A DNA stretch of 64,000 bases, from the NCBI RefSeq assembly GCF_900105615.1, contig NZ_LT630003.1:3980501-4044500 (forward strand), read 5' to 3'. The notes beneath the pieces are model-generated. The model had not been told where the DNA came from and did not search any database. It saw only the letters and a program-made list of their open reading frames with translations. Positions 38,710 through 61,683 of the stretch are shown here, one piece after another (position 1 is the stretch's first letter; each line of letters starts with the position of its first letter). This DNA comes from Lacrimispora sphenoides JCM 1415 (lineage in GTDB: Bacteria > Bacillota > Clostridia > Lachnospirales > Lachnospiraceae). The translations under genes were made by a program, and so were the position numbers.

Positions 38710-39564
38710 TTATGAAATCGCATTGGCTCCGGCTATGATCTCGGTAAGCTCCTGGGTAATGGACCCCTGTCTTGCCCGGTTATATGCCAGTCCAAGTTCT
38801 TCTATCATCTCTTCCGCATTATTGGTCGCAGAGTCCATGGCCGCCATTCTGGCTCCGTTTTCACTTGCAACGGCTTCCAGCAAAGCACCATAGATCATGC
38901 TGCTCATATACTTAGGAATAATGGAATCCAATACCTGATCCTCATCCGGCTCATAGTTCATTAAAGTCAGATCCGTTTTTTCGCTTCCCTTTTCCATTTC
39001 AACCGGGAGAAGCTTTTTAAGAGTCGGTATTTGGGTCATAGTATTCTTAAAAGATGTATAAGCCAGATAAATTTCACCTATCCGGTTCTGTCCAAATGCA
39101 TCCAGAAGCTCCATGGTAATATCGGCCGCATCGCGGTAGATCGGTTCATTGATCACCTCAGAATAATCCTTGGCGATCGTATATCCCTTTCTTGCCAGTG
39201 CTTCCTTCCCTTTCCTCCCAATGGCATAAACATCCGTAAGTTCCGGCGTAAGCCTCTCATCTCCATGAACCATCTTGGCAATGTTGCTGTTATAGCCTCC
39301 TGCCAGTCCACGGTTTGATGTGATGACAATGACTGCCTTTCTCTTAGAATCTCCTGCCTTTAAATACTTATGGTCTATGCTGCCGGACTTGCGCAGCATG
39401 GAGCCTATGGTATCATACATCATTTCGTAATAGGGTTTGGATTCCTCTGCCTTAGCTTTGGACTTCTGCAGCTTAACGGTAGATATGAGCTTCATGGCTT
39501 TCGTAATCTGTTCGGTACTGGAAATACTGTCTCTTCTTCGTTTGATATCCCTAATGGATGCCAT
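38710..39564 (-). CDS. atpG: ATP synthase F1 gamma subunit
   Basis: 284 residues. N-terminal helix RDIKRRRDSISSTEQITKAMKLIS and C-terminal NRARQGSITQELTEIIAGANAI, the two ends of the coiled coil that rotates within the alpha/beta hexamer. The GLAGGYNSN segment is also typical. Confidence 0.97.
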   Translation of the reverse strand: MASIRDIKRRRDSISSTEQITKAMKLISTVKLQKSKAKAEESKPYYEMMYDTIGSMLRKSGSIDHKYLKAGDSKRKAVIVITSNRGLAGGYNSNIAKMVHGDERLTPELTDVYAIGRKGKEALARKGYTIAKDYSEVINEPIYRDAADITMELLDAFGQNRIGEIYLAYTSFKNTMTQIPTLKKLLPVEMEKGSEKTDLTLMNYEPDEDQVLDSIIPKYMSSMIYGALLEAVASENGARMAAMDSATNNAEEMIEELGLAYNRARQGSITQELTEIIAGANAIS

Positions 39565-39580
39565 GATTGTTCACCTGCCT

Positions 39581-41128
<1,548 letters not shown>

Positions 41129-41205
41129 CTAACGGCTCTCCGGACAACTGATTTCCTAAACTCAGGCTTACCTTCATGTAAAAAACATGAACAGTAAAGT
41201 GGAAA

Positions 41206-41754
41206 TCAGGTCAATTGCAGCTTTAACAGGCTGCGGCGCAGTTCGTAAATCTGCGTTTTAATGCTGGAATCCACCACCCGGTCTCCGATCCTGATTACCA
41301 TACCGCCAATGATTGACGGGTCCACCTGATAATCCATCTCAAAATCTACGTACTGAGTTGTATTTAACAGCTTTTCTACCAGCCGGGCCTTCTGCCCTTC
41401 ATTTAATTCAACAGCGCTGGCCACATGTGCCACGCCGATCTTCTTATATTCCTTGACAGCGTTAATGAAGTATTCACAGATTGCCGGAATCTCCTTCTGC
41501 CTGCCTTTGTCGACAATGACTGCCAGAAAACCCATCAGGTCATCCGATACGCGTCCGCCGAAAATATTCTTAATAATGCCGATTTTATCTTCCTTTACAA
41601 TCTTCGGATTATTAAGAAGCTCCGCCAATGACTGATTCTCGTGCCAGATCACCTGCAGGCTCTTCACTTCCTCAAACAAAGCGTCCACTTCCTGCTTATT
41701 AAGAGCTTCCTCAAACAATGCATCGCCGTATACCTTTGATACTAGCTTTGCCAT
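41206..41754 (-). CDS. atpH: ATP synthase F1 delta subunit
   Basis: 182 residues. N-terminal helical bundle (KLVSKVYGDALFEEA) and C-terminal GGMVIRIGDRVVDSSIKTQI signature of the OSCP/delta family. It links F1 to the b stalk. Its start overlaps the atpF stop by 13 nt. Confidence 0.97.
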   Translation of the reverse strand: MAKLVSKVYGDALFEEALNKQEVDALFEEVKSLQVIWHENQSLAELLNNPKIVKEDKIGIIKNIFGGRVSDDLMGFLAVIVDKGRQKEIPAICEYFINAVKEYKKIGVAHVASAVELNEGQKARLVEKLLNTTQYVDFEMDYQVDPSIIGGMVIRIGDRVVDSSIKTQIYELRRSLLKLQLT

Positions 41755-42257
41755 GTGCTTTCACCCATCTCTTTCAAAGTCTCGTCAATCAGGGCATCCT
41801 GCACCGTAGTGTCAATGGAAGCAGCTACGACCTTGCCGGCCATAACAGAAGCGATGGATATGATCTGTTCCTTCATATCATCAAGCGCTTTCTTTCTCTC
41901 CAGTTCCACCTCGCGGCTGCCCCGCGTAACAATGCGGTCCGCTTCTTCCCTGGCTTCTGTAATAATCTCTGCCTCACGCTGTTTCGCTCTTTTTCTGGCA
42001 TCCTCTAAGATTCCTTCTGCCTCTTTCTTAACTTCAAGAAGTCTGGCTTCATATTCTTCCTTCATTGCCCTCGCAGCTTCCTTATCGTCGGCAGCGTTCT
42101 TTAATTCTCCCGCAATCCTCTGTTTTCTCTTTTCCAGCACTTCCCGTACCGGATTGAACAGCATATAGGATAACGCAAAAAACAGGATGAATACGTTGAT
42201 GCCTGTTATAAATGAATCGAAAAGCAGCTGCGGGTCAAATCCCAATAATCGATCCAA
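41742..42257 (-). CDS. atpF: ATP synthase Fo b subunit
   Basis: 171 residues: one N-terminal membrane helix (about 11-31) and a long charged coiled coil of the peripheral stalk. The start is TTG at 42257, fixed by AGGAGG 7 nt upstream (GGAGGCGAAACC-TTG). The operon order c-b-delta is standard. Confidence 0.96.
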   Translation of the reverse strand: MDRLLGFDPQLLFDSFITGINVFILFFALSYMLFNPVREVLEKRKQRIAGELKNAADDKEAARAMKEEYEARLLEVKKEAEGILEDARKRAKQREAEIITEAREEADRIVTRGSREVELERKKALDDMKEQIISIASVMAGKVVAASIDTTVQDALIDETLKEMGESTWQS

Positions 42258-42330
42258 GGTTTCGCCTCCTTTCGCTCTTTATTCTTTCCCCATTCTGAGG
42301 GCAGGCTTATGCCTCCCGCCACTCTGCTCT

Positions 42331-43325
<995 letters not shown>

Positions 43326-43373
43326 ACGCTTAAGCCTCCTTTCTTAAGAGATCCCACTTGACCGCAAAGGAGA

Positions 43374-43775
43374 TTACTCTCCCTTTGTCCTGTTGGCCAC
43401 GATCTTGTGGATAATAGGCTGAGAAAATGCTCCAACCTTGAGTCCGAGGACTCCGATTACTACTGCGACCGGATTGAACCAGTTCGAAAACCGGACAATA
43501 ACTGCCACCAGTATGACAATAAGCAGCAGATAGCGAAGGACTGAACTAATAATACTCTGCTTCTGAACAGCCTTTGGATCTTCGGTCTTCATAGAACGTT
43601 CAAGTACCATAGCCATGGATAAAAACATGGCCAGAGCTAACACCATTCCCAAAATCAGTCCTGCAAAAACAGCACGACTTGGATACATAAATAATGCCCC
43701 TAGCATAGCCACTGCCGTGAAAATAACAATTCCGGCAGAAACCTCAAGCATCAGATTCTTTGTTTCCTTCCCCAT
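43374..43775 (-). CDS. atpI: ATP synthase subunit I family protein
   Basis: 133 residues with four membrane segments, the typical position and size of AtpI ahead of atpB. The family helps assemble the c ring. AGGAGG precedes the ATG. Confidence 0.82.
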   Translation of the reverse strand: MGKETKNLMLEVSAGIVIFTAVAMLGALFMYPSRAVFAGLILGMVLALAMFLSMAMVLERSMKTEDPKAVQKQSIISSVLRYLLLIVILVAVIVRFSNWFNPVAVVIGVLGLKVGAFSQPIIHKIVANRTKGE

Positions 43776-43790
43776 TACAAATCCTCCTGT

Positions 43791-44126
43791 CTACGAAAGT
43801 TTCTCATCATCATGTCCTTTCACGCGGCTTGGCTGCTTCGGTTTATGTACCTTGGGTCCAGCCTCCACTTGCCGCTCCACGCGCTCCTTCTGATCCTCAA
43901 CCCACTCCTCCCTTTCATTCATGGCCAGTGTAGCCTTTGCCAGCTTATAAGCATTGGATCCCCCAGCCAGAAACCCCAGAACCATAAATAATAATATCAG
44001 CTTTGTCCCAGCATACCGGTCAATATAGTAACCGGCAAGAATACAGACAAATACAGGTACCATGACACTGATCCCCAGTTGGATCACCATCATGAAACTT
44101 CTCATTACGCTCTTTTTATGCCGCAT
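43791..44126 (-). CDS. AtpZ/AtpI-like membrane protein
   Basis: 111 residues from the ATG at 44126 (AGGTG 6 nt upstream); two membrane segments (about 13-35 and 41-62) with the GYYIDRYAGT loop typical of AtpZ-like proteins, then a long charged cytosolic tail. AtpZ-type proteins form a complex with AtpI in other bacteria and are linked to Mg2+ or c-ring assembly. First gene of the ATP synthase operon. Confidence 0.78.
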   Translation of the reverse strand: MRHKKSVMRSFMMVIQLGISVMVPVFVCILAGYYIDRYAGTKLILLFMVLGFLAGGSNAYKLAKATLAMNEREEWVEDQKERVERQVEAGPKVHKPKQPSRVKGHDDEKLS

Positions 44127-44165
44127 AATTACACCTGCTTTCTGCATCCTGCACATATAACTGGT

Positions 44166-44324: not shown

Positions 44325-44609
44325 TTATGCTTCTTTTGTACCTGGAAGAATTGTTTCAACTTCTGCATGTGGACGTGGGATTACATGTACAGATACAAGC
44401 TCACCAACACGCTGAGCTGCTGCTGCACCTGCATCGGTAGCTGCCTTAACAGCACCTACATCGCCTCTTACCATAACAGTAACAAGACCTCCGCCTACAA
44501 ATTCTTTACCGATCAGGGTAACGTTTGCTGCCTTTACCATAGCATCTGCTGCTTCAACGGATCCAATTAAACCTTTTGTTTCAATCATTCCTAATGCATC
44601 ATATTTCAT
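44325..44609 (-). CDS. BMC-H hexameric shell protein (last gene of the cut operon)
   Basis: 94 residues, one BMC domain of the PduA/EutM type: [45 protein letters not shown] and VIPRPH. It tiles into hexamers forming the facets, with a central pore for substrate. It differs from the shell protein at 59188 by only four residues in the first 89; the C-terminal tails differ. AGGAGG before the ATG. Confidence 0.97.
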
Positions 44610-44651: not shown

Positions 44652-45287
44652 TTATTTTACAATGGTTACGCCAGAAGAACTGCCAAGTCCCATGGCATTT
44701 GCTTCTTCCGTATCAAGATGGCATTCCAGGCTTGATGTTTCGGTTACGCGGATTGCCGTATGATGAAAAATACCGCCGCGGATCCCCTCTGTCTGAATGC
44801 TAACTGTCTGACCGTCATGAACGCCAAACTTCAAAGCATCCTGAGGAGTCATATGAATGTGTCTCTGGGCGATGATTAAGCCCTCTTTTGTTTGAACGGA
44901 ACCTTTTGGTCCCACCAGGGTGATCCCTGGCGTTCCGGTTAATTCACCGGACATTTTAGGCTCAGATTTCTTTCCAAGCTTAAAACAGTCTGCTGCCAGA
45001 ACCTCAACCTGAGTCTGTTTTCTGACCGGACCTAATATACGGACCTTCTCAATGGCTCCCTTTGGGCCGCATACGGTAACCGTTTCCTTGCATGCATACT
45101 GACCCGGCTGGGATAACTCCTTCATCTTGGTCAGTTCGTATCCCTTACCGAAAAGAGCATCCAAGTCTTCCTGGGACAAATGTACATGGCGATTGGAAAC
45201 GCCAACTGGTATTCGAAACTCATCTGTTCCGGATTCCGTTTTCACGGCTTCCATTAAGAGTTTGATTACCGCTTCATACTTATCCAT
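44652..45287 (-). CDS. pduL: PduL-type phosphotransacylase
   Basis: 211 residues. Zn-binding His motifs GVSNRHVHLSQEDL and QRHIHMTPQDALKFGVHDG identify the PduL family. It converts acetyl-CoA and phosphate to acetyl phosphate in the shell lumen, recycling CoA for the aldehyde dehydrogenase. The first 20 residues (MDKYEAVIKLLMEAVK) form an amphipathic helix separate from the core, a likely encapsulation peptide. It follows the aldehyde dehydrogenase by 24 nt. Confidence 0.95.
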   Translation of the reverse strand: MDKYEAVIKLLMEAVKTESGTDEFRIPVGVSNRHVHLSQEDLDALFGKGYELTKMKELSQPGQYACKETVTVCGPKGAIEKVRILGPVRKQTQVEVLAADCFKLGKKSEPKMSGELTGTPGITLVGPKGSVQTKEGLIIAQRHIHMTPQDALKFGVHDGQTVSIQTEGIRGGIFHHTAIRVTETSSLECHLDTEEANAMGLGSSSGVTIVK

Positions 45288-45311: not shown

Positions 45312-46859
45312 TTACTGGCCTTTCATGGCCAGTACGATCTCTTTTACAAGAGCTGCCAGCTTCTCATTGTCATCGTTTCCTCCCTGGCAGGCAGAAGAGG
45401 TCACACCTTCTTTTTTATCAAAAGAAGCTACGAAATCAGCAGGGCTAAAGGAAGCAGCCTGGGTTTTGTCTTTCCAGGTAAAGGTTGGATCATCTGCTGC
45501 GATAGTAGAGCAATCTTTCATACCAAAAGCAACCTTTTTCACATTAAGGAGATGTTTCGGGCTCACGTTTTCGGAAACAGAGCTTCCTCCGCAGGTTCCG
45601 CATCCTAATGTAAAGGAAATCGGAAGGCCTGTACTGATTCCGGTTCCACCCTGGCTTCCGCCTGTATTTACAAGGATTCTGGAAGCAGGCTTTGCAGCGA
45701 ACTTAAGAACCATATCCCTGTCCTGGGTATGAATGCTCATGGTATGTCCGATTCCGTTCTGTAAAAGGCGGATGCTTAAGCCGCAGGCCTCTTCCCAGTT
45801 CTTTACTGTGTAGAAACCAAGTACGGTTGTCAGCTTTTCGTAGGATAATGGATATCCCTCTCCGACACCTTCCTGTTTTCCGATGAGGATCTTGGCCCCT
45901 TCCGGAATCTGGATTCCGGCTGCCTGGGCAATCACCTGAGGAGAACGGCCGACAAATTTGGCATTCATGTTATGGCCGTTTTTAAATAACAGGGCACAGA
46001 CTTTATCGGTTTCTTCCTTTGTCATAAAGTATCCGCCCTGGCTTTTTAACTCTGCTACAACTTCTGCATGATTGCTCTCCTCACAGATAATGGACTGCTC
46101 GGAAGCACAGATGGTACCATAGTCAAACGTCTTGCTGGCAAGGATTGTCTTTACTGCCTGCTTCACATCTGCCGTCTTTTCTATGTAAGCCGGTGAGTTT
46201 CCTGCACCTACGCCGATGGCTGGCTTTCCTGCGCTGTATGCAGCTTTTACCATACCCGGGCCGCCGGTTGCAATGATAACGGAGACTTCCTTACACTTCA
46301 TCAGTTCATTGGTAGACCCCATGGAAGGCATGGATACACAGCCGATGATTCCCTCCGGCGCTCCTGCTGCAATTGCAGCGTCCCTCATAACCTCCGCAGC
46401 CTTCAGAGTGCATTTTGCAGCAGAAGGATGGGGAGAAAATACGATTGCGTTTCCGGATTTAATGGCGATCATGGATTTAAAAAATACGGTTGAGGTTGGA
46501 TTTGTAGATGGAACGATACCCATTACAAGTCCTACCGGTTCTGCCACATCAATGGTCTTATTCACGGTATCCTCTGCTAGGATTCCTCTTGTCTTCATAT
46601 CTTTTATTTCTTCATATAAAAGAGTGGAAGCAGCATGGTTCTTATATGCCTTGTCCATGACCTTTCCAAAGCCTGTCTCTTCTACAGCCATCTCTGCAAG
46701 ACAAAGAGCGTGTTCCTCTCCTGCCTTTGCCATACTCTTAAGAATGGTGTCAATTTGTTCTGCCGTAAATCCGGCAATTTTTTTTGCGGCTGCTTCACCG
46801 CATCTGGCTAAATCCCTTGCTTCCTGGATGGAACGTAAATCAAAATCAAAATTTTCCAT
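45312..46859 (-). CDS. CoA-acylating acetaldehyde dehydrogenase, microcompartment type
   Basis: 515 residues. Catalytic Cys C251 in FDYGTICASEQS, oxyanion Asn N120 in PSTNPTS and the Rossmann segment IKSGN; the EutE/PduP family, CutF in choline loci. It oxidises acetaldehyde with NAD+ and CoA to acetyl-CoA. The C-terminal 20 residues (EKLAALVKEIVLAMKG) form an amphipathic helix after a linker, an encapsulation peptide. It is the active counterpart of the Cys-less homologue at 55734-57230. Confidence 0.95.
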   Translation of the reverse strand: MENFDFDLRSIQEARDLARCGEAAAKKIAGFTAEQIDTILKSMAKAGEEHALCLAEMAVEETGFGKVMDKAYKNHAASTLLYEEIKDMKTRGILAEDTVNKTIDVAEPVGLVMGIVPSTNPTSTVFFKSMIAIKSGNAIVFSPHPSAAKCTLKAAEVMRDAAIAAGAPEGIIGCVSMPSMGSTNELMKCKEVSVIIATGGPGMVKAAYSAGKPAIGVGAGNSPAYIEKTADVKQAVKTILASKTFDYGTICASEQSIICEESNHAEVVAELKSQGGYFMTKEETDKVCALLFKNGHNMNAKFVGRSPQVIAQAAGIQIPEGAKILIGKQEGVGEGYPLSYEKLTTVLGFYTVKNWEEACGLSIRLLQNGIGHTMSIHTQDRDMVLKFAAKPASRILVNTGGSQGGTGISTGLPISFTLGCGTCGGSSVSENVSPKHLLNVKKVAFGMKDCSTIAADDPTFTWKDKTQAASFSPADFVASFDKKEGVTSSACQGGNDDNEKLAALVKEIVLAMKGQ

Positions 46860-49570: not shown

Positions 49571-50169
49571 GTTTTTCCTCCATATTCCAGACATATCATC
49601 TGTGATAAGCGGTTGATGAACGGGTTAAGACCTGCATTCTCTGTTTCCGCTGCCAGCTCTCTTACGCTGCAGCGCAGGCGGTGCAGAAGAACGATTTCTT
49701 TTCCCTTTTCAGACTGTGCATGAAAACCTGTGATCTCAAAGCAATCGTCGGAAGGCTTGTTAAAGTTTTCCTTATGAAATCCGGTGCAGGGTTCAAATCC
49801 GAATTCCACTTCACGGCCTTCTTTCCCCAGATCAGAAAGTTTACGTTCCAGGGCAAATATCTGCTCTGCTAACAATACATCCCGATTTAACAGTTCAAGA
49901 CCTGTTTCCAGAAACTGAGCCTGAAGCGTTTTCTTTTTTAACAAGAAACGATCCCGGCAGAACTCTTTTTCCGGTGCTTCTTCTTTTTTCTCAGCAGGTT
50001 TCTCATTTTTTCGTTTTACCATCATGGGATCGTCACTTATGGGGATCTTCTTATCCACCAGGAATTGGCGCGCTCCGGGTGTCAGTCTGGTTCCGGCAGG
50101 GAGATCATAAGCAGTAAAGGGTTCTCTTCTGAATAAAATCCTCAAATCGTCTTCCGTGATGAATTTCAT
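49555..50169 (-). CDS. EutT-like cobalamin adenosyltransferase homologue
   Basis: 204 residues. The N-terminus (MKFITEDDLR, LPAGTRLTPGARQFLVDKKIPI) resembles EutT, and the C-terminal LLHRLRCSVRELAAE helix resembles the EutT region RLRTxVRExE. A charged linker separates them. CutC needs no B12, so the adenosyltransferase role is doubtful; a structural or scaffold role is possible. Stop overlaps the EutJ start region, directly after the alcohol dehydrogenase. Confidence 0.65.
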   Translation of the reverse strand: MKFITEDDLRILFRREPFTAYDLPAGTRLTPGARQFLVDKKIPISDDPMMVKRKNEKPAEKKEEAPEKEFCRDRFLLKKKTLQAQFLETGLELLNRDVLLAEQIFALERKLSDLGKEGREVEFGFEPCTGFHKENFNKPSDDCFEITGFHAQSEKGKEIVLLHRLRCSVRELAAETENAGLNPFINRLSQMICLEYGGKTCQRK

Positions 50170-51305
50170 TAATAGCCCCCCTTACACAGTTTCCGATAGA
50201 TGGTTTCAATCTCTTCTACCGTAGGCACCCTTGGGTTGGTCAATGTGCAGTTATCAGCCAGGGCTTTTTCCGCCATTTCCCGTACGGCCTGCTCAAATTC
50301 GTCTTTATCAATCTTTAAGTCTGTAATCTGCTGCGGTATTTTAATCTTATTCATCAGATTTTTGATGTGACGCACCAGGCCGTGTACCGTGGCCTTATCT
50401 GTTCCTGCTGCGATTCCAAGCATATTGGCAATTGCCACATACCTGCCGCAGGCTATCTGTTCGCCGGCGTCTTCCAGACCGGCATTGTAGCTGATGACAT
50501 GAGGAAGCAGGATCGCATTGCTTCTTCCGTGCGGAATGTGAAAGCGCGCTCCCAGAGCATGAGCCATGCTGTGGCAAAGCCCTAAGGAAGCTCCGTTAAA
50601 CGCAACTCCAGCCAGACAGGAAGCATTGTGCATGTGAGTTCTGGCTTCCATGTCGCTTCCTTCTTCCACGGTACGTGTCAGGTAGTTCCACACCAGTCTC
50701 ACCGCTTTTTCCGCGCAGGCATCGGTAAAATCACCTGCATTGGTTGAAACATAGGCTTCCAGGGCATGGGTTAACACATCCATTCCCGTATCTGCCGTAA
50801 TGTGAGGCGGAACCGACACCGTAAAGCGGGGATCAAGAAATGCTGCATCCGGCACCATACTATCGGAACGCAGCGGATATTTCGCCTGGGCCTGTGGGTC
50901 GGATATAACAGAAAAATTAGTTACTTCACTACCGGTACCGCTGGTTGTTGGAACCGCGATTAAGAACAGTCTCTTATTTCCCATCTGACTGTAGATGTGG
51001 CTGGCCGCCTTTGCCGTATCAATGGCAGAGCCGCCGCCAAGGGCGATTACTGCATCCGGACCAAAGCACTTCATTCCGCCTATGGCTTTTGAAACGACTT
51101 CAATGGTCGGATCGGGCACTACCTCAGAAAATACTTCATAGCTGCTTCCCTTCTCCTGCAAAAGCTCTGTAATCCAGTTCACCTTTCCGGACTGGGCCAT
51201 AAAGGGGTCACAGATAATATAAGCCTTTGTTACAGGAAGATCCTTTAACTTATCCAGACAGGAAGATCCCATATATACTTTTGTGTTCATTACAAATTGC
51301 TCCAC
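50169..51305 (-). CDS. Iron-containing alcohol dehydrogenase (EutG/PduQ type)
   Basis: 378 residues. GGGSAID NAD+ motif, TTSGTGSEVT, and the metal-binding His cluster HSMAHALGARFHIPHG of iron ADHs. It reduces acetaldehyde to ethanol with NADH, regenerating NAD+ for the aldehyde dehydrogenase (CutO in other choline loci). The start is GTG at 51305 with GGAGG about 10 nt upstream. Confidence 0.94.
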   Translation of the reverse strand: MEQFVMNTKVYMGSSCLDKLKDLPVTKAYIICDPFMAQSGKVNWITELLQEKGSSYEVFSEVVPDPTIEVVSKAIGGMKCFGPDAVIALGGGSAIDTAKAASHIYSQMGNKRLFLIAVPTTSGTGSEVTNFSVISDPQAQAKYPLRSDSMVPDAAFLDPRFTVSVPPHITADTGMDVLTHALEAYVSTNAGDFTDACAEKAVRLVWNYLTRTVEEGSDMEARTHMHNASCLAGVAFNGASLGLCHSMAHALGARFHIPHGRSNAILLPHVISYNAGLEDAGEQIACGRYVAIANMLGIAAGTDKATVHGLVRHIKNLMNKIKIPQQITDLKIDKDEFEQAVREMAEKALADNCTLTNPRVPTVEEIETIYRKLCKGGY

Positions 51306-52110: not shown

Positions 52111-53064
52111 TTAGTGCTTCACCACTGTAACCGGAAATTGATATTCCTTCATCCAGCCTTCTATGCGGTCTAAATCCTCCGGGCTTAAGCTAGGATCACC
52201 TTCAATGGGATATTTCATATCAAGCTGATTGTATTTGTTAACACCCAGCTTATGATACGGAAGTAGATCAATTCCTTTAAAATTTTTGTAGTCACGGAAG
52301 GGCATTAAGAACTTAATGACCTCATCGATCTCTTCCCGGCTGTCATTGATGCCCTTTAACATAGGCATGCGGACTTTCACATTAAAACGGTGGTGAAGCA
52401 GTTCCTTTAAATTGGTAAGGATCTGTTCGTTGTTCACACCCACCAGTTCATTGTGGCGGACAGGATCCATATGTTTGATATCAAACAGGAATAAGTCCAC
52501 ATACTCTGCAATTTTTAAAATCGTTTCCGTATTTGTATAACCGCAGGTCTCAATAGCCGTATTGATCCCTTCCTGCTTGCAGGCCATTAACAGATTTAAT
52601 GCTGCTTCCGGCTGGGCAGTCACTTCACCGCCGCCAAGAGTTACGCCGCCGCCTGAAATATCATAAAAGGCAGAATCCTCTTCCACGATTTTAAGCAGTT
52701 CTGAAATGGTTTTAACTTCTCCGGCAATGGTCAGCGCTGCATTGGGGCAGACATTCTTGCATTTCATGCATCCGATGCAATCCTTTTCCCGCTGGATTTC
52801 ATGTTTTCCCGTCTCTTTGGATATCACATGGATTCTTACGGGGCACACATCAGCGCACGCCCCGCAGTTCACACAGGAATTTTGCTTATACATCACCTGG
52901 AATTTCCGCACCATTCCTTCTGGATTGGAGCACCACTTACACCGGAGCGGACAGCCTTTAAAGAATACCAGGGTTCTGATTCCCGGCCCGTCATACATGT
53001 TGTACTTCTGCACGTTAAAGATAAACGCTTTACGCTCAATCTCTCCTGTCGTTCCATGGTCCAT
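52111..53064 (-). CDS. cutD: Choline TMA-lyase activating enzyme (glycyl-radical activase)
   Basis: 317 residues from the ATG at 53064; a TTG five codons earlier (53079) is an alternative. Radical SAM motif C38xxxC42xxC45 (GCPLRCKWC), followed by two 4Fe-4S ferredoxin clusters (CVNCGACADVCP and CIGCMKCKNVCP). It installs the glycyl radical on CutC using SAM. It starts 22 nt after the cutC stop, as in other choline loci. Confidence 0.95.
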   Translation of the reverse strand: MDHGTTGEIERKAFIFNVQKYNMYDGPGIRTLVFFKGCPLRCKWCSNPEGMVRKFQVMYKQNSCVNCGACADVCPVRIHVISKETGKHEIQREKDCIGCMKCKNVCPNAALTIAGEVKTISELLKIVEEDSAFYDISGGGVTLGGGEVTAQPEAALNLLMACKQEGINTAIETCGYTNTETILKIAEYVDLFLFDIKHMDPVRHNELVGVNNEQILTNLKELLHHRFNVKVRMPMLKGINDSREEIDEVIKFLMPFRDYKNFKGIDLLPYHKLGVNKYNQLDMKYPIEGDPSLSPEDLDRIEGWMKEYQFPVTVVKH

Positions 53065-53086
53065 TGTGATCGATCTCAACTTTCTT

Positions 53087-55630
53087 TTAGAAATGTGTCA
53101 GCATGGTTCTGCTTATGATTTCATCCTGTACATCCTTGCATAACTCTACGAAGAATGCGCTATAGCCGGCTACACGGACGATTAAGTCACGGTACAGCTC
53201 CGGATGCTTCTGAGCCTCAACTAAGGTATTGTTATCCAGATAGTTGAACTGCATCTCGCCGTTTCCTAACATGCAGGCCGTACGGAGAAGGGTGATAAGG
53301 CTTTCTTCCCCTTCCTGAGTATCCAAAAGGCCGGCCATGATCTTAAAGTTATGAACCATACCGATGTTCATGCTGTCATTGGACATCTTGGATACGGACT
53401 TGATGATTGCAGTCGGGCCCTTGAAGTCTGCGCCCTGGGTTGGGCTAATTCCGTCGGAAAGAGGCAGCCATGCATTACGGCCGTTGGCAGAAGCGCCTGT
53501 CATCTGTCCGAATGGAGTGTTATTGGAAATGGATAAGGTACCATGGCTTAATACAGAGTATAAGGTCTTATATTTTCTGTGTTCATGCTCTGTAAAGTCA
53601 ACCAGGTCAGCAGCAATTAAATCTGCATAATCATCATCATTTCCGTATTTTGGAGCATTAAGGCAGTCGGTGCGGATCTGGTCATATCCCACAAAGTCAG
53701 CTTTTAACGCTTCATTTATCTGCTCTAATGTATATTTTTTCTCTTCGAATACAAGCTTCTTGATCGCTGCCATGGAGTCTGCATAGGTAGCGAGTCCGGA
53801 CCATACCACACCAGGTCCGAAGTTGTACATCGCACCGCCTGCGGATACATCCTTGGCTTTTTCCATACAGCCTTCGTACATGATGGACATGAGCGGCTTT
53901 GGAGCTAAGTCCCTGTGAACGCGCTGGGAAATTACGGTAGCAACATCGGTCCACTTTGTAATGTATTTGATTTCTTCTTTTACAGCTGCTTCAAACTCTT
54001 CATAAGTTTTGAAGTTGCTTAAGTCACCCATATCCGGGCAAACCTGCTTGCCATACCATAAAGGAGTTCCGTGGTTTAAAACAAGCTCGATACAGATCGG
54101 CCACTGGGTATAAGCAGTGGATGTCCACTGATAGAGACGTCCTGACTTCTGAGGCTCCACACAGCCCATCAGACAGTAATCACGTGCATCTTCGATGGAT
54201 ACGCCTTTTGCAAGCATCATCTTGATGTGGGCATCGTCAAAATGGCAGGCTGGGAATCCCATACCGGAACGAACCACATCTACGATCTTTTTCATGTACT
54301 TTTTCGGGGACTTGTTGTGGATACGGCATGCAAGTGATGGCTGGTAAATCTTTACATGACGAACTGCATCCATAAGTAAGTAAGTTAAATCATTGGTGGC
54401 ATCGTGTCCGCTGCGGGTCACACCGCCTACGCACATGTTTACGAATGGCTGGTAGCCTGCAAAGAATTTGGAACCGCCTTCGCTGGTGATCCACATCATC
54501 TCAGACATCTTGATCAGCATACAGCCGGCAAGCTCAAATGCCTGGTAATCATTCATACGTCCGGATTCGATATCATCTTTGTAGAATGGATACATATACT
54601 GATCCACACGTCCGATGGACATACCGGTCTGGTTCTCTTCCACTACGAGCAGGGATTCGATGGTCCATACTGCCTGGATTGCCTCCCAGAAGGTTCTTGG
54701 CTTGTGAGCAGGAACGTAAGCATTTACTTCAGAGATCTTTAACAGTTCTTCCTTACGCTTTGGATTGGTTTCCTTGGCCGCAAGCTCTGCTGCATACTCG
54801 GAAAGTCTCTTTGCGTAGATCATAACGCCTTCTGTGGTATCGATAATGGATTTGTAAAAATAAATCTTCTCAATATCATCAGGATTCTCATAATCCAGTT
54901 CTTTTAAATGATCCTTGGCTTCCTGCTGAATATCCAGCATGCCCTTCTTCATAAGGATTACATCATAGCCGGGGTTTGAGTCTCCGCCACCGTTGATGGC
55001 ATGGTAGGAGCAGTCAGATACAAAGGATTCTCCGGATAATTCCCAAACGCCTGCTTCACGGTACTGATCTTCACAATACTCATCAACCGATTTGCCGGAC
55101 CAGTATGGGAACAGCTCTTCTTTCATGATTTTCTTGTCTTCTTCGGAAATATAGAATGGATCCTGAGGACGTGTTCCGATGGTATCGATTTCATCTACCA
55201 TCCATCTCCATGCGATATCCGGAGAGAATGCACCTGCACGGGGAGCGCCGCAGGGAGCACCTACGATGAGCTCGTTGTCCTGAATAACAAGGGGAGCTGT
55301 TTCGCAGCAGTAACGGAAACATTTTGCACGAAGCATGATCTTTGGCATACCAGGATTCTCTTTTGCGATCTTGGTAATGGCCCGTGCACGGTATGTTGTA
55401 ATTGATGGTTTATGCTTTAAATAATTTTCCTTTAAATTCTGGAGTCTGGGAGTAATGCCATCCGGTATCTCTGTTCCTCCCTCAAAGCTTACTGCCGCCT
55501 GGGAAGCAGGCTCTTTTTTGTTGATTTCATCGGAAACAGTTTCAAACATTTTCATCAGAGAAGCTCTTTCTTCTGGTGTCATGTTCTTCGTTGCTTCTAC
55601 AAATTTATTTGAAAATTCACGAATATCCAA
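53087..55630 (-). CDS. cutC: Choline trimethylamine-lyase (glycyl radical enzyme)
   Basis: 847 residues from a TTG at 55630 (AGAGGG 8 nt upstream); a second TTG at 55651 with AGGTGG is the alternative. It cleaves choline to trimethylamine and acetaldehyde. The choline-site residues known from Desulfovibrio alaskensis CutC all occur, shifted by one: Y209, D217, F396, thiyl C490 and base E492 (MGCVEPQ), T503 and Y507. The glycyl radical is G822 in RVAGYSAFF. The residues separate it from propanediol and glycerol dehydratases. The first 40 residues are an amphipathic extension, probably an encapsulation signal. Confidence 0.97.
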
Positions 55631-55733
55631 TCTGGTTTCCCTCTCTTTCAATTAATTGCCACCTAATGAATCAAGCGGATATGCTTGCATATCCAGTTGA
55701 TTCACAAATTCAAGGTTGAAAGACGCTTTTCTT

Positions 55734-57230
55734 TCAACACTTATCATCAAGCTCCCTGGACAAGGTTTCTAAAATCTGTTTCAGGAGCGCTTTTGCATCT
55801 TCGCTTCCTCCTTTTGTCTCAGGAGCTATTCCATGTCCGCCCGAAACGTTTCCTGTAACCCCAAGGAATTCTTTCGCATCCCGGACTCCATATCCCACGT
55901 TCCGGATATAGATGAAATTCATGGGTGAAACATTGTCAGCCGTAATTCCGGCGCCTGTCGTAATGCTTCCAAGGGTCATGGCCGGAAACAGGTTCGTGGT
56001 CGCTCCCATGCTGCCCAGGGTGGCAGGTGTATTGACAAGGATCCTGCCCACCGGCTTCTTTAAGGCGAACTGGCGTATTACTTCTTCATCCCTGGAGTGG
56101 ATTACCAGGGTGTGTCCATGGCTTTCGTTAACCAGAAGACTCATGCATTTCTCGCAGGCGTGCATCCAGTCATTTTCGATGTAATAAGCCAGTACGGGAC
56201 ACAGAAGCTCTTTTGCAAACGGATTCCTGTCAGAAATATATTTCTGTTCGGATACCAGTACTGTTGTGGAATCAGGCACCGTAAATCCTGCTCTGACTGC
56301 AAGTTCTATTGCAGGTCTTCCCATGATTTCCGTATCTGCCTTCCCGCTTTCCAGGCAAAGGAGGTCAATTAACTTTTTCTCCTCTTCCCCATTCATAAAG
56401 TAGGCGCCGTTCTTAAGCATTTCGGCTTTTACTTCTGCTGCAATGAGGCTGTCTACCACCATATACTGCTCGGCTGCAGACACGATCCCGTAATCAAAGG
56501 TACGGCTTGCAATGATATCCTCTACCGCCTGTCTTACATCGGCAGTCCGTTCCACAAAGACCGGTCCGTTTCCGGTACCGCCGTAAATATAAGGTTTTCC
56601 GCTTTCTGCTGCCTCACGGCACAGCTCCGGCACTCCGGTGTTGACTACCATGGCTGCTGCCGGGTGGCGGATCAGCTCCAGGGTTCCTGCCCTTGTCACC
56701 GTCTTTAGATACCCAATGGCTCCTTCCGGAAGCCCGCAGCATTTTCCTGCTTCCATCAGCCGGTCAATCAGCCTGCCGGTTACCTTCCTTGCCCTTTCAT
56801 GAGGCGCGATCACGATGGGATTGCCGGACTTAACAGCGATTAAAATGTTATAAATCGCGGTAGAAACCGGGCTCACTGCCGGCGTCAGGGCGGCAATTAC
56901 ACCCACCGGAACGCCTACTGCCATGGTTTTAAGCCTTGGGTCTTCTTCTAAGATGCCGACACACCTCATATCTTTTAGGCGTTCCGGCAGGAAATTGCAG
57001 ACAAAGGTGTTCTTCACGTACTTGTCCTGGAAACGTCCATATCCGGTTTCTTCCGCGGACATGACCGCCAGTTCCTCCGCCAGTTCCTTTGCTGCCGCAG
57101 CCAGGGTGCCCGTAATGAGATCAAGCTTTTCCTGGGGGAAGGTAAGCATGGTCTCTCTGGCTTCCCGTGCACTTTCCATTAAAATCCTTGCCTCCTGTAT
57201 GGAGAGCAGGTCTTTATCTACAAAATTCAT
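55734..57230 (-). CDS. Aldehyde dehydrogenase homologue lacking the catalytic Cys (CutB position)
   Basis: 498 residues from the ATG at 57230 (GGGAG upstream). It aligns without gaps around the core of the acylating dehydrogenase at 45312, but residue 251 is Ser (FDYGIVSAAEQ versus FDYGTICASEQ), and the oxyanion Asn 120 is also Ser (PAVSPVS versus PSTNPTS). The IKSGN cofactor-side segment is kept. It ends in an amphipathic helix (AKALLKQILETLSRE), a possible encapsulation peptide. It is probably a structural or NAD+-binding pseudoenzyme. Directly upstream of cutC. Confidence 0.9.
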   Translation of the reverse strand: MNFVDKDLLSIQEARILMESAREARETMLTFPQEKLDLITGTLAAAAKELAEELAVMSAEETGYGRFQDKYVKNTFVCNFLPERLKDMRCVGILEEDPRLKTMAVGVPVGVIAALTPAVSPVSTAIYNILIAVKSGNPIVIAPHERARKVTGRLIDRLMEAGKCCGLPEGAIGYLKTVTRAGTLELIRHPAAAMVVNTGVPELCREAAESGKPYIYGGTGNGPVFVERTADVRQAVEDIIASRTFDYGIVSAAEQYMVVDSLIAAEVKAEMLKNGAYFMNGEEEKKLIDLLCLESGKADTEIMGRPAIELAVRAGFTVPDSTTVLVSEQKYISDRNPFAKELLCPVLAYYIENDWMHACEKCMSLLVNESHGHTLVIHSRDEEVIRQFALKKPVGRILVNTPATLGSMGATTNLFPAMTLGSITTGAGITADNVSPMNFIYIRNVGYGVRDAKEFLGVTGNVSGGHGIAPETKGGSEDAKALLKQILETLSRELDDKC

Positions 57231-57260
57231 TTTCGATTCTCCCTTCATCCGGGATGCCTG

Positions 57261-57569
57261 CTATTCCTGTTCAGGAGCAACACTTAAGGCATATCGTCTG
57301 ATGATTTTTTCAAGATGGGGATGAGGTCTTGGAATGATTACGGAACTGTAAACATCCGCTCCCATATCCTTCACTGCCTTAATTCCAGCTTCTACAGCCG
57401 TCTTGCAGGCCCCCACATCTCCCCGTACCAAAACAGAAATATAACCGGAAGCTACATTTTCATAGCCGATGAGTTCCACATCTGCCGCCTTGCACATTGC
57501 ATCCGCCGCTTCGAGAACAAATACCAGACCAAATGTTTCTATTGAGCCTATGGCTTCATATCTTTCCAT
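57261..57569 (-). CDS. BMC-H hexameric shell protein
   Basis: 102 residues. BMC motifs GSIETFGLVFVLEAADAMCKAADVELIG (in parts), VRGDVGACKTAVEAG and VIIPRPHPHL. The C-terminal 15 residues are charged and unlike the other shell proteins. It is the third in the row of shell genes before the dehydrogenase homologue. Confidence 0.95.
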   Translation of the reverse strand: MERYEAIGSIETFGLVFVLEAADAMCKAADVELIGYENVASGYISVLVRGDVGACKTAVEAGIKAVKDMGADVYSSVIIPRPHPHLEKIIRRYALSVAPEQE

Positions 57570-57586: not shown

Positions 57587-57883
57587 CTATGCGTCTATAT
57601 CGTGTACGGATACAATGTCTCCGACCTCTTTAATCGGCCTTGGCATTACGTTCTTTGCTGTCAGCTTGCCGATTGCTGCTGCCGCTTCTGCACCTGCCTC
57701 TACGGAGGAGCGTACCGCTGCCACATCACCCTTTACCATAATGGTCACCAGGGTGGAACCTACGTTTTCATAAGAAATCAATTCTACATCTGCTGCCTTA
57801 AGCATCTTGTCTGCTGCTTCCAGTGCAGGAACCAGTCCAACGGTCTCTACCAGGCCTAAAGCTTCTTCGCCGTAATATCTCAC
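57587..57883 (-). CDS. BMC-H hexameric shell protein
   Basis: 98 residues; start GTG at 57883 with GGAGG about 9 nt upstream. BMC motifs GLVETVGLVPALEAADKMLKAADVELI (in parts), VKGDVAAVRSSVEAG and VMPRP. It diverges more from the paralogues at 44325 and 59188, suggesting a different pore residue set. Confidence 0.95.
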   Translation of the reverse strand: MRYYGEEALGLVETVGLVPALEAADKMLKAADVELISYENVGSTLVTIMVKGDVAAVRSSVEAGAEAAAAIGKLTAKNVMPRPIKEVGDIVSVHDIDA

Positions 57884-57903: not shown

Positions 57904-58185
57904 CTATTTGCGGTATTTCTTATCCACATATTTGTCAACTGCGCTTCTTCCGTCATCATTGATTTCGTAGCGCATGCGCAGCTCCCCGTTCTGATCCAGG
58001 TCATAGCTGCATAAATTGACCATACCGTTTGCTTCCAAAGACATGACATGATCCATGTAACGATCTTTGGTAAACTGGCGTTCTCCGCCGTAAAGCGGCT
58101 TTAAAGCCTCCATGATCTGGGCAATATCCGCATTTTCTACTCCATATAAATAATTTAAAACCGCTGTTCTTGCAGGTAATAACAT
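57904..58185 (-). CDS. Small winged-helix-like protein of the cut operon
   Basis: 93 residues. The predicted layout is three helices (ARTAVLNYLYGVENADIAQI, FTKDRYMDHVMSLEANG) followed by a beta wing (LCSYDLDQNGELRMRYEI), the pattern of a winged-helix domain. No catalytic motif is seen. It lies between a transporter and two shell genes with AAAGGGG before the ATG. I do not recognise a named family; it may be a regulator, an adaptor or a cargo binder. Confidence 0.6.
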   Translation of the reverse strand: MLLPARTAVLNYLYGVENADIAQIMEALKPLYGGERQFTKDRYMDHVMSLEANGMVNLCSYDLDQNGELRMRYEINDDGRSAVDKYVDKKYRK

Positions 58186-58189
58186 TTTC

Positions 58190-59188
58190 TTATTCCCCTT
58201 TCCTGAATAAATCCAGTGGATTCATGGTTACCAGAATCGCACCAAATACGATTACAAAAGAACCGATTACAATCGTAGGTGTCACTGCCTGTCCCAAAAA
58301 CAGGATACAGAAGAAAACTCCCCAGAACGCATAGGTTACATTTAAGGACATTCCCACAGCACATCCAACGGTGGAATTACTCTTATACCAGCAAAGGAAA
58401 GACACTGCGGCACTTAAGCCGGATACTACAAGCCAGATGGCTGGTATTCCTGCCATAAGTGTTCCGCCAAGAAGCCCCAGGCCTCCAACGATAGGAAGGA
58501 TCACGAATAAGTCTACAACACCGGAAATCAGCTGGCGTAAGTTTACTGCAACATCGGTATCGATCATGGCTCCGCCGTAAGTGGCAAATACACCTTCCAG
58601 GGCCCAGCAGATTGCTGCAACAAAGGAGAAGATAATTCCCAGTGTAAAGTTATCGCTGCCTTCCGGCTTCGTCCAGTTGATGATGATGGCACCGGCCACA
58701 CATACCAACATACCCATCATGACTCTCTTAGTGATTTTCTGTTTTAAGAAGATCCATGCAAAAATTGCTCCGAATAAACTGCATAATGCGGAAATCGGAA
58801 TCGCATAGGCACCGGCCATGGCAAGACCTACCAGATAAGCGCCATTGGCAATGGGGCCTCCGAGAATGGATCCGATGACAATCATTTTACCAGGGAATGT
58901 ATTAAGGCTTCTTCCCATCTCGCGGATACGGCCGCTTTTTGCATTATAAGCAGTCAGCCAGATTCCTGCGAAAAGATCGTTTAAGCCGGAGCACACATAT
59001 GGTCCTGCTAAAAGTCCTGCCGCACTGACAAGAGGTTCATAATATCCGGCCACCAGTACAAGTACGGTATAGATCCCGTATGTCAGTCCGGATAATGCAC
59101 CGGTTGTCATACCGGTTGTCCTGAATTTTTTATTGACTGCCGCCATTTTTGCATCCGCGGATACAGATGTCATTCCTTGGTTACTCAT
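58190..59188 (-). CDS. DMT/EamA family transporter (candidate choline importer)
   Basis: 332 residues with ten membrane segments and the two EamA repeats. It starts at the stop of the shell gene at 59188 (TAATG overlap). It is a close paralogue of the transporter at 59468. In choline loci of other bacteria a small cation transporter is present; a quaternary-amine importer is the simplest role, but efflux of trimethylamine cannot be excluded. Confidence 0.85.
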   Translation of the reverse strand: MSNQGMTSVSADAKMAAVNKKFRTTGMTTGALSGLTYGIYTVLVLVAGYYEPLVSAAGLLAGPYVCSGLNDLFAGIWLTAYNAKSGRIREMGRSLNTFPGKMIVIGSILGGPIANGAYLVGLAMAGAYAIPISALCSLFGAIFAWIFLKQKITKRVMMGMLVCVAGAIIINWTKPEGSDNFTLGIIFSFVAAICWALEGVFATYGGAMIDTDVAVNLRQLISGVVDLFVILPIVGGLGLLGGTLMAGIPAIWLVVSGLSAAVSFLCWYKSNSTVGCAVGMSLNVTYAFWGVFFCILFLGQAVTPTIVIGSFVIVFGAILVTMNPLDLFRKGE

Positions 59189-59478
59189 TATTTACACTCC
59201 TTTTTCTCTTTCGGAAGAATGGTTTCAACCTCAGCGTGAGGACGAGGAATTACGTGAACGGAAACCAGTTCTCCAACTCTCTGGGCTGCAGCCGCACCTG
59301 CATCGGTGGCTGCCTTTACCGCACCGACATCACCTCTTACCATAATGGTAACTAGACCGCCGCCGACAAATTCTTTTCCAACCAGAGTAACATTTGCTGC
59401 CTTTACCATTGCATCTGCAGCTTCGATAGAACCGATCAGGCCCTTTGTCTCAATCATTCCTAATGCATCAAATTTCAT
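59188..59478 (-). CDS. BMC-H hexameric shell protein
   Basis: 96 residues, the PduA/EutM type, nearly identical to the protein at 44325-44609 over the first 89 residues (differences F3, I18, V33, I45). The tail (PKEKKECK) differs and carries Lys and Cys. It overlaps the flanking transporter genes by 11 and 1 nt, so translation of the three is coupled. Confidence 0.97.
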
Positions 59479-60763: not shown

Positions 60764-61597
60764 TTATTCCCTGTATATCGGAACAATGATCTCTGAAACA
60801 AACTCATCCCGGCTTCTGGTGGTCCAGTAATCCACAACATACCGTTCGAAGCTTTCTTTTCCGCACTTATAGCCCCTTTTAGCCGCCCATTTAAGTATTT
60901 TCTCATATTCTTCATCAATCGTTTCATGCTTTCCGATATGATAAACCGACGCAGCCATAAATCCTCCAAAGACCTGCCGGTTCAAACAGTTCCTGCATGG
61001 ATGAATGGCCTGCTGCATGATTCTGGTGCGGCTGCATTTGCCTGCCATCTTTTCCTCAAATGAATCAAATTTTAAAATTACCGGTCCTGTGATCTCATTC
61101 TCTTCATGCTCTAAGTGATTGGTCCATTCTATATTGATAATGGATTCCATGTAATTGTAGTCAAAGTCCTGCTCCATGCCGCAATAGGTCGCCGGCTGTA
61201 TATATTTTACGGCAACATCATGAACATCATTTTGAAGCACCAGTTTGGCTTCCTGTATCAGCTCATACCAGTCCTTAACCGCAATATAGCTGTTATGGAT
61301 CTGCTGCTCCTGAAGGCATAACTGGTCAATCTTGTTCCTGAAATTCTGTTCCAGGTAATAATAAGTATTTCCTTCGACCAACCCCTGCATCTCTTCCAGT
61401 TTAAATCCCATTTGCTTGTAGTATTTCACCACCGGAACAGTCAGAAGGGACTCTTTGTTATAATACCGATAGCTGTTTTCCTTGCAGATCATATCCGGAG
61501 ATATGATACCGATCTTATCATAAAACCTCAAAGCTTTTGTAGAAATGTTGCAGATCTTACTCACTTCCCCAATTGAGTACAATTTTTTTTCTTTCAT
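60764..61597 (-). CDS. MerR family transcriptional regulator of the cut operon
   Basis: 277 residues from the ATG at 61597 (GGGGG upstream). N-terminal MerR winged helix (YSIGEVSKICNISTKALRFYDKIG), a coiled-coil dimerisation helix (about 80-115), and a C-terminal GyrI-like effector domain with a CxxC pair (PCRNC). It sits upstream of the cut operon on the same strand with its own terminator. The matching 20-bp-spacer promoters suggest that it activates the operon and its own gene, perhaps in response to choline; the ligand is inferred. Confidence 0.9.
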   Translation of the reverse strand: MKEKKLYSIGEVSKICNISTKALRFYDKIGIISPDMICKENSYRYYNKESLLTVPVVKYYKQMGFKLEEMQGLVEGNTYYYLEQNFRNKIDQLCLQEQQIHNSYIAVKDWYELIQEAKLVLQNDVHDVAVKYIQPATYCGMEQDFDYNYMESIINIEWTNHLEHEENEITGPVILKFDSFEEKMAGKCSRTRIMQQAIHPCRNCLNRQVFGGFMAASVYHIGKHETIDEEYEKILKWAAKRGYKCGKESFERYVVDYWTTRSRDEFVSEIIVPIYRE

Positions 61598-61683
61598 TGA
61601 AACCCCCATAAGCATAAGCCTTGTCTATGTGTTCATTAATAGTTTCCCTCTTCAATTACGAGTTTATTTGTACTGATTAACTT

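Follow-up and report, generated by a model that had tools for sequence, protein, structure and literature searches.

A conserved aldehyde dehydrogenase homologue without catalytic cysteine encoded beside cutC in a type I choline cluster of Lacrimispora sphenoides

The choline cluster and its two aldehyde dehydrogenases

Gut bacteria break down choline to trimethylamine, and in the loci considered here this takes place inside a protein shell. The window, that is the whole stretch of 64,000 nucleotides of Lacrimispora sphenoides JCM 1415 that was analysed, carries such a choline cluster of type I (GRM1) on its minus strand (Table 1). The closest named locus is that of Lacrimispora celerecrescens, with 99.5% identity in CutC and 95% in the aldehyde dehydrogenase (AldDh) homologue encoded next to it. 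By synteny comparison the gene order is the same as in the annotated choline cluster of Enterococcus raffinosus. The cluster starts with a regulator gene, followed by shell and transporter genes, two shell genes, the first AldDh gene, cutC and cutD. The middle part comprises a shell gene, a PduV-like gene, the alcohol dehydrogenase gene, a gene for a protein with a weak EutT match, a EutJ gene and further shell genes; the last part consists of a cupin gene, a gene for a long shell protein, the second AldDh gene, the gene of the PduL-type enzyme and a shell gene. For genes of type I loci the names cutB and cutF are presumably in use. The small conserved protein encoded in the first part had no match in a search with the NCBIfam profiles. 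The BMC-H shell proteins encoded at 44325-44609 and 59188-59478, one at each end of the cluster, are nearly identical. Directly downstream of the cluster and on the same strand lies an operon (38710-44156) which we take to encode an F-type ATP synthase.

Table 1. Features of the choline cluster discussed in the text (window coordinates)
Feature	Coordinates	Strand	Basis
Cys-less EutE/CutF-type AldDh (pseudo-AldDh)	55734..57230, alternative start 57248	-	Ser at catalytic Cys and oxyanion Asn positions; trees
Predicted encapsulation-peptide-like C-terminal helix of pseudo-AldDh	55743..55805	-	residues 482-502 of 504-aa form; AlphaFold, hydrophobic moment, tails of relatives
cutC, choline TMA-lyase, short 854 aa form without GRM2 N-terminal extension	53087..55651	-	TIGR04394 1690.9 bits, cut-off 1050
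cutD, CutC activating enzyme	52111..53079	-	TIGR04395 568 bits, cut-off 360
Catalytically complete acetaldehyde dehydrogenase (Cys, Asn, Glu, His present)	45312..46859	-	TIGR02518 744.1 bits, cut-off 620.1
PduL-type phosphotransacylase	44652..45287	-	synteny with annotated E. raffinosus locus
Iron alcohol dehydrogenase (CutO/PduQ-like)	50169..51305	-	below cut-offs of specific families; synteny
Two BMC-H shell genes upstream of pseudo-AldDh	57261-57569, 57587-57883	-	sequence; synteny
Small conserved protein upstream of pseudo-AldDh	57904-58185	-	synteny
MerR-type choline-utilisation activator homologue, cluster start	60764..61615	-	NF053782 348.8 bits, below cut-off 450; synteny

The open reading frame of the AldDh homologue beside cutC, called pseudo-AldDh in the following, comprises 504 codons (55734-57248). 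An in-frame ATG at 57230 is preceded by AAGGGAG and is therefore the likelier start, as chosen in the initial annotation; the protein then has 498 aa. In this numbering serine is encoded both at the position of the oxyanion asparagine (Ser120, AGC) and at that of the catalytic cysteine (Ser251, TCT), corresponding to residues 126 and 257 of the 504-aa form, and the paralogue of the same operon has N120 and C251. Both codons had been read in the same way before, and the position-by-position alignment of the two proteins claimed at that time extends without change of offset to beyond residue 360. The two proteins are 38% identical. The active-site Glu and His are retained in pseudo-AldDh, which reaches 483.3 bits with TIGR02518 and so stays under the curated cut-off that its paralogue passes.

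The structure of pseudo-AldDh was predicted with AlphaFold from an alignment of 17 rows, 13 of them Cys-less and four active. The model (pLDDT 84.6, pTM 0.83) has a predicted AldDh fold with TM scores of 0.86/0.95 to 3k9d; the sequence identity to the EutE-type structures 3k9d and 5j78 is 42% and 39%, respectively. Pseudo-AldDh thus matches the EutE-type enzymes in its predicted fold but lacks their catalytic Cys and falls below the cut-off of their family profile. Encapsulation peptides are helices set off by a disordered linker. In the model a disordered linker precedes a helix at the C-terminal end of the protein, and the hydrophobic moment of this helix (0.53) was reached by 57 out of 5000 shuffled sequences. 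The amphipathic C-terminal helix described in the initial annotation is accordingly present as a predicted helix of the encapsulation type.

In a related AldDh the exchanges C269A or H387A abolished the activity and left the structure essentially unchanged (PMC4762007, excerpts), and the exchange of Cys by Ser or Ala in such enzymes has been reported to be inactivating (PMC5311937, excerpts). By analogy to these mutants pseudo-AldDh probably has no dehydrogenase activity. In C. ljungdahlii the AldDh gene adjoining the choline lyase gene, a counterpart by position alone, is induced 2^7.2-fold on choline (PMC12016505, excerpts), and hence a gene at the cutC-adjacent position is expressed.

Distribution of the cysteine-less copy and state of the cysteine position

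CutC was chosen as bait for a survey of choline loci, so that the sample is independent of pseudo-AldDh itself. CutC was found in 14 of 398 genomes of the phylum and in 7 of 397 genomes of the family, together 20 different genomes of one phylum, and the neighbourhood of cutC was read in all of them. Seventeen have an AldDh gene upstream of cutC, 13 of them directly and four at a distance of about 1.2 kb. The Cys position of these 17 copies is occupied by Ser (11), Pro (4) or Ala (2) and in no case by Cys, and at the Asn position Asn is kept in 13 copies and replaced by Ser in four. Since three different residues occur at the Cys site and Asn is mostly retained, the combination Ser/Ser is not fixed together with CutC, a possibility the initial annotation had raised; it is a lineage state and not a fixed signature.

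In three of the 20 genomes (G056, G095 and G481) no AldDh gene was found beside cutC; the absence refers to this place, as the genome searches scored at most three candidates per genome above fixed thresholds. In G056 and G095 the genes immediately preceding cutC encode shell proteins; the locus of G481 is reduced and contains no AldDh in the stretch read. Consequently, not every locus of this kind requires the gene, and a strict rule that a short CutC requires a Cys-less AldDh is broken. The full-length GRM1 CutCs read have open frames of 846-867 codons.

Several of these loci show further peculiarities. The locus of G481 (L123) contains only genes which we take to encode a regulator, a transporter, a small protein and a tandem-fused shell protein of 185 aa, followed by CutC and CutD; neither an AldDh nor an alcohol dehydrogenase was recognised in the stretch read. 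The cutC-adjacent AldDh of G581 (L124:12990-14357) has eroded and retains 36% identity; its Cys position is occupied by Pro, its N-terminus is short and the terminal helix-like tail is missing. A presumed iron alcohol dehydrogenase gene (L075:3941-5077) lies between the Cys-less AldDh gene and cutC in G119, and in G033, G151 and G203 the gap between the two genes is of similar size. A 21st genome (G228), in which CutC is cut by the contig end, has two copies with Ser.

A search with pseudo-AldDh as query gave 20 loci, among them 18 relatives of at least 47% identity, including one broken copy; the 18 relatives have Ser (17) or Pro (1) at the Cys position. In one MAG the Cys-less AldDh is broken (L018:10001-11376), and in one assembly of Lacrimispora xylanisolvens the active AldDh has a frame break near residue 51 (L007:20368-21466); both may be sequence errors or real changes. 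In an alignment of 104 homologues Cys is absent in all 37 members of the Cys-less lineage and present in all 67 others. Among the 37, the contig of L084 is short and has no cutC, and a contig end truncates the CutC beside L083; the loci from a Desulfobacteraceae member (L016) and Cetobacterium (L020) were found by the Cys-less protein itself, and that of E. raffinosus (L067) came from a CutC search of a plasmid collection, where one of five E. raffinosus records was read. Members of the lineage occur in records of Bacillota, Thermodesulfobacteriota and Fusobacteriota.

Descent and selection

A first tree contained 30 of the 37 Cys-less rows (seven near-copies dropped) and 55 active rows. It was rooted at the midpoint and has long Cys-less branches; Cys-less and active rows lie on opposite sides of one branch with a support of 100. 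For trees rooted with an AdhE-type outgroup, 18 of the 37 rows were used, the long rows L124, L073, L067, L020 and L019 and seven more near-copies being left out; the careful version also omits two far outgroup rows. The 18 rows form a clade (support 100/100) which is the sister of GRM2 CutF (three rows, support 100/98). Because of the dropped rows the sister relation rests on these 18 and three sequences. Two changes, V to G and S to G, are shared by the Cys-less rows (35/37 and 36/37) and GRM2 CutF (3/3 each) and occur in none of 65 others. The Cys-less clade therefore has a single origin and is the sister of GRM2 CutF. On the first tree at least seven letter changes are required at the Cys site, the loss of Cys included.

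The natural assumption would be that the Cys-less copy is a duplicate of the active AldDh of its own operon. The active GRM1 AldDh is placed in another part of the tree, and a tree constrained to unite both kinds of GRM1 copy in a single clade is worse by 93.9 log-likelihood units (p-AU 5.8e-7). The Cys-less copy is thus not a duplicate of the active copy of the present operon. Seven sites that seemed to be gained in the Cys-less clade (G112, G223, L316, C350, P351, G434 and R449) are common to GRM2 CutF and hence are not gains of this clade. In the simplest history the Cys-less copy and GRM2 CutF would go back to one ancestral choline AldDh, whose catalytic function was preserved in the GRM2 line and given up in the GRM1 line, an order of events which we infer from the tree.

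The ratio dN/dS was estimated by a simple pairwise count, with most pairs saturated. Against L003 it is 0.095 for the Cys-less copy (dS 0.25) and 0.018 for the active copy (dS 0.29), and against L004 0.075 (dS 0.61) and 0.027 (dS 1.25), respectively. Five further Lacrimispora-type pairs gave 0.060-0.078 at dS above 1, the pairs with L015 and L125 are saturated, and the pair with L019 gave 0.24 at dS 1.8. The pseudo-AldDh gene is under purifying selection. Together with the Cys pattern in the alignment, the low ratios bear out the earlier conclusion that selection on the gene acts on a function different from that of an acylating dehydrogenase.

A comparison of 21 Cys-less copies, each matched with the active copy of its own locus, gave mean pairwise identities of 0.541 among the Cys-less and 0.657 among the active proteins; the Cys-less pair is the less identical one in 192 of 210 comparisons. 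With domain limits carried over from PMC4762007 (excerpts), the entropy difference between Cys-less and active copies is 0.60 in the nucleotide-binding domain, 0.32 in the catalytic domain and 0.18 in the oligomerisation segments. The latter are less relaxed than the core (0.18 versus 0.43), a weak difference reached in 400 of 10000 random-site samples. Of 428 contiguous blocks of 20 sites, block 201-220 shows the strongest relaxation; residues 366-400 and 7-30 are less variable in the Cys-less than in the active copy.

Active-site positions (N138, A235, E357 and H387 in the numbering of Cphy1178) were taken from PMC4762007 (excerpts) and transferred by equal spacing to Cys (N138, A235) and by conservation, not by a computed alignment. 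At the A235 position so transferred, Gly is found in 35 of the 37 Cys-less rows, near-copies included, and in all three GRM2 CutFs, and Val in all 65 others; the preceding residue is Tyr in 35 of 37, Ser in the three CutFs and Gly in 64 of 65.

Possible role of the cysteine-less copy

According to the available text of Axen 2014 (PMC4207490), every GRM1 locus with two AldDHs has one in which Cys is replaced by Ser or Pro, and a role as scaffold or regulator was suggested for the dead second AldDH. In the excerpts of Sutter 2021 (PMC8217296) a putatively inactive second copy is marked in GRM1A and GRM1B. The locus described here is of this same two-AldDH type, with a short CutC, a complete AldDh and a second copy in which Cys is replaced. 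The observation and its general interpretation are therefore already in print: pseudo-AldDh is a real conserved pseudoenzyme of a class described before. Compared with the text of the two papers available to us, Ala as third replacement, the partial loss of Asn and the sister relation to GRM2 CutF are new, the last being the main addition. Among the titles and beginnings of abstracts searched, with most subscription papers outside the search, none indicated a functional test of the Cys-less copy.

Four GRM2 loci were read for comparison: one of the two Klebsiella records listed with more than 60% identity, one of the two Proteus records listed and two of 327 matching E. coli genomes. In all four CutF is the sole AldDh, unlike in the GRM1 locus with its two. 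Like pseudo-AldDh, GRM2 CutF is encoded in a choline locus and has a C-terminal tail resembling an encapsulation peptide (PMC6971018, excerpts); unlike pseudo-AldDh it keeps Cys and Asn in the three loci checked (L134 left out). In the Klebsiella locus no gene is listed at the place expected for CutF (L068:8859-10537), and the open frame that was read lacks the part before the equivalent of residue 104; an error, gaps in the gene table or disruption of the gene may be the cause. A further difference is that GRM2 CutC carries an N-terminal extension which GRM1 CutC lacks. This extension is stated to be a degenerate CutC copy (PMC6971018, excerpts); residues 1-345 of GRM2 CutC (L068, L069) indeed align to CutC in segments with 24-35% identity, the best at E 3e-31. 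The same excerpts report that CutF interacts with CutC and moves full-length CutC, but not CutC without the extension, into larger complexes, and that CutC takes CutF along only with its extension. CutF was proposed as a cross-linker, the authors conceding that encapsulation with CutF is uncertain.

As fold, oligomerisation segments, terminal helix and the place beside cutC are kept, we consider pseudo-AldDh to be most likely a non-catalytic structural subunit of the GRM1 enzyme core, which perhaps links CutC to the active AldDh. The predicted fold, the terminal helix and the gene position are consistent with such a role; the presence in the core, the type of oligomer and the binding partners we infer. 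Pseudo-AldDh shares its AldDh lineage with GRM2 CutF, the AldDh partner of CutC in Enterobacterales. The GRM1 copy would have lost the catalytic Cys once, after which the position drifted among Ser, Pro and Ala, and catalysis would lie with the second AldDh, of another EutE branch and encoded further down the operon. By way of its C-terminal helix and its AldDh-type oligomer surfaces pseudo-AldDh may be taken into the core and there help to keep CutC and the active AldDh together. If a dead enzyme is indeed retained for assembly, it would reveal the construction of the core and could serve as a component of designed compartments. The tree also narrows the suggestion of 2014 to a specific question, namely whether proteins of the CutF lineage hold CutC regardless of whether they are catalytic themselves.

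Several observations count against a structural role. CutF acts on CutC via the N-terminal extension, which is missing in GRM1 CutC; three of the 20 loci are without the gene, and in G581 it is eroded and has lost its tail. Moreover, distance matrices gave no sign of co-evolution specific to CutC (partial correlation -0.05 given the active AldDh). For the scaffold taking CutC into the shell, one of the possibilities named in the initial annotation, the interaction of the sister protein CutF with CutC in GRM2 speaks in favour and the missing co-evolution against.

A short CutC with a non-catalytic CutF relative encoded next to it suggests that GRM1 and GRM2 might have solved the same assembly problem as mirror images. 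To link CutC with its AldDh, GRM2 would use a degenerate CutC fused to CutC, and GRM1 a degenerate AldDh descended from the ancestral CutC partner CutF, after catalysis had moved to the EutE AldDh of the other branch. We put this forward tentatively as a doubtful extension, against which stand the three loci without the gene and the missing correlation with CutC.

We considered four alternatives to a structural subunit. First, pseudo-AldDh could be a regulatory subunit, forming mixed tetramers that tune the activity, stability or solubility of the active AldDh without contact to CutC. The predicted AldDh fold and the lesser relaxation of the oligomerisation segments would suit this, as would the distance correlation with the active AldDh (0.61; 0.51 given CutC). 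However, the correlation with CutD given CutC is equal or stronger (0.69, above the 0.51 of the active AldDh), so that the distance correlations are not specific to one partner. The gene adjoins cutC and not the active AldDh gene, and mixing of subunits is not assured, as the two proteins belong to different EutE branches and share little more than a third of their residues. We regard a regulatory subunit as unlikely.

Second, the protein could bind NAD+, CoA or acetaldehyde within the shell as a sensor or buffer, the NAD+ buffer having been named in the initial annotation together with a preserved cofactor-side motif. The motif is preserved in part. Of the 21 matched Cys-less rows, 18 keep the Pro and 17 the His of the cofactor pocket, and the active-site Glu and His are kept in 17 and 20. 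But relaxation is strongest in the nucleotide-binding domain and, among the blocks, in 201-220, and a bulky Tyr stands before the GxGN loop in 20 of 21 rows where all 21 partner AldDhs have Gly. These findings speak against the NAD+ buffer and make any such ligand-binding role quite improbable.

Third, a serine-based enzyme of another reaction (hydrolase, esterase or transacylase) might be supposed, as Ser is the commonest replacement and the His is nearly always kept; since Pro and Ala also occur (6 of 17 CutC-found genomes, 8 of 37 rows) and the site changed repeatedly on the tree, we reject a serine nucleophile as extremely improbable. Last, a decaying duplicate without function would explain the loci without the gene, the eroded copy of G581 and the broken copy in the MAG, but is largely refuted, and to us scarcely credible, in view of the purifying selection seen in the pairs with dS below 1 and of a single origin with members in three phyla.
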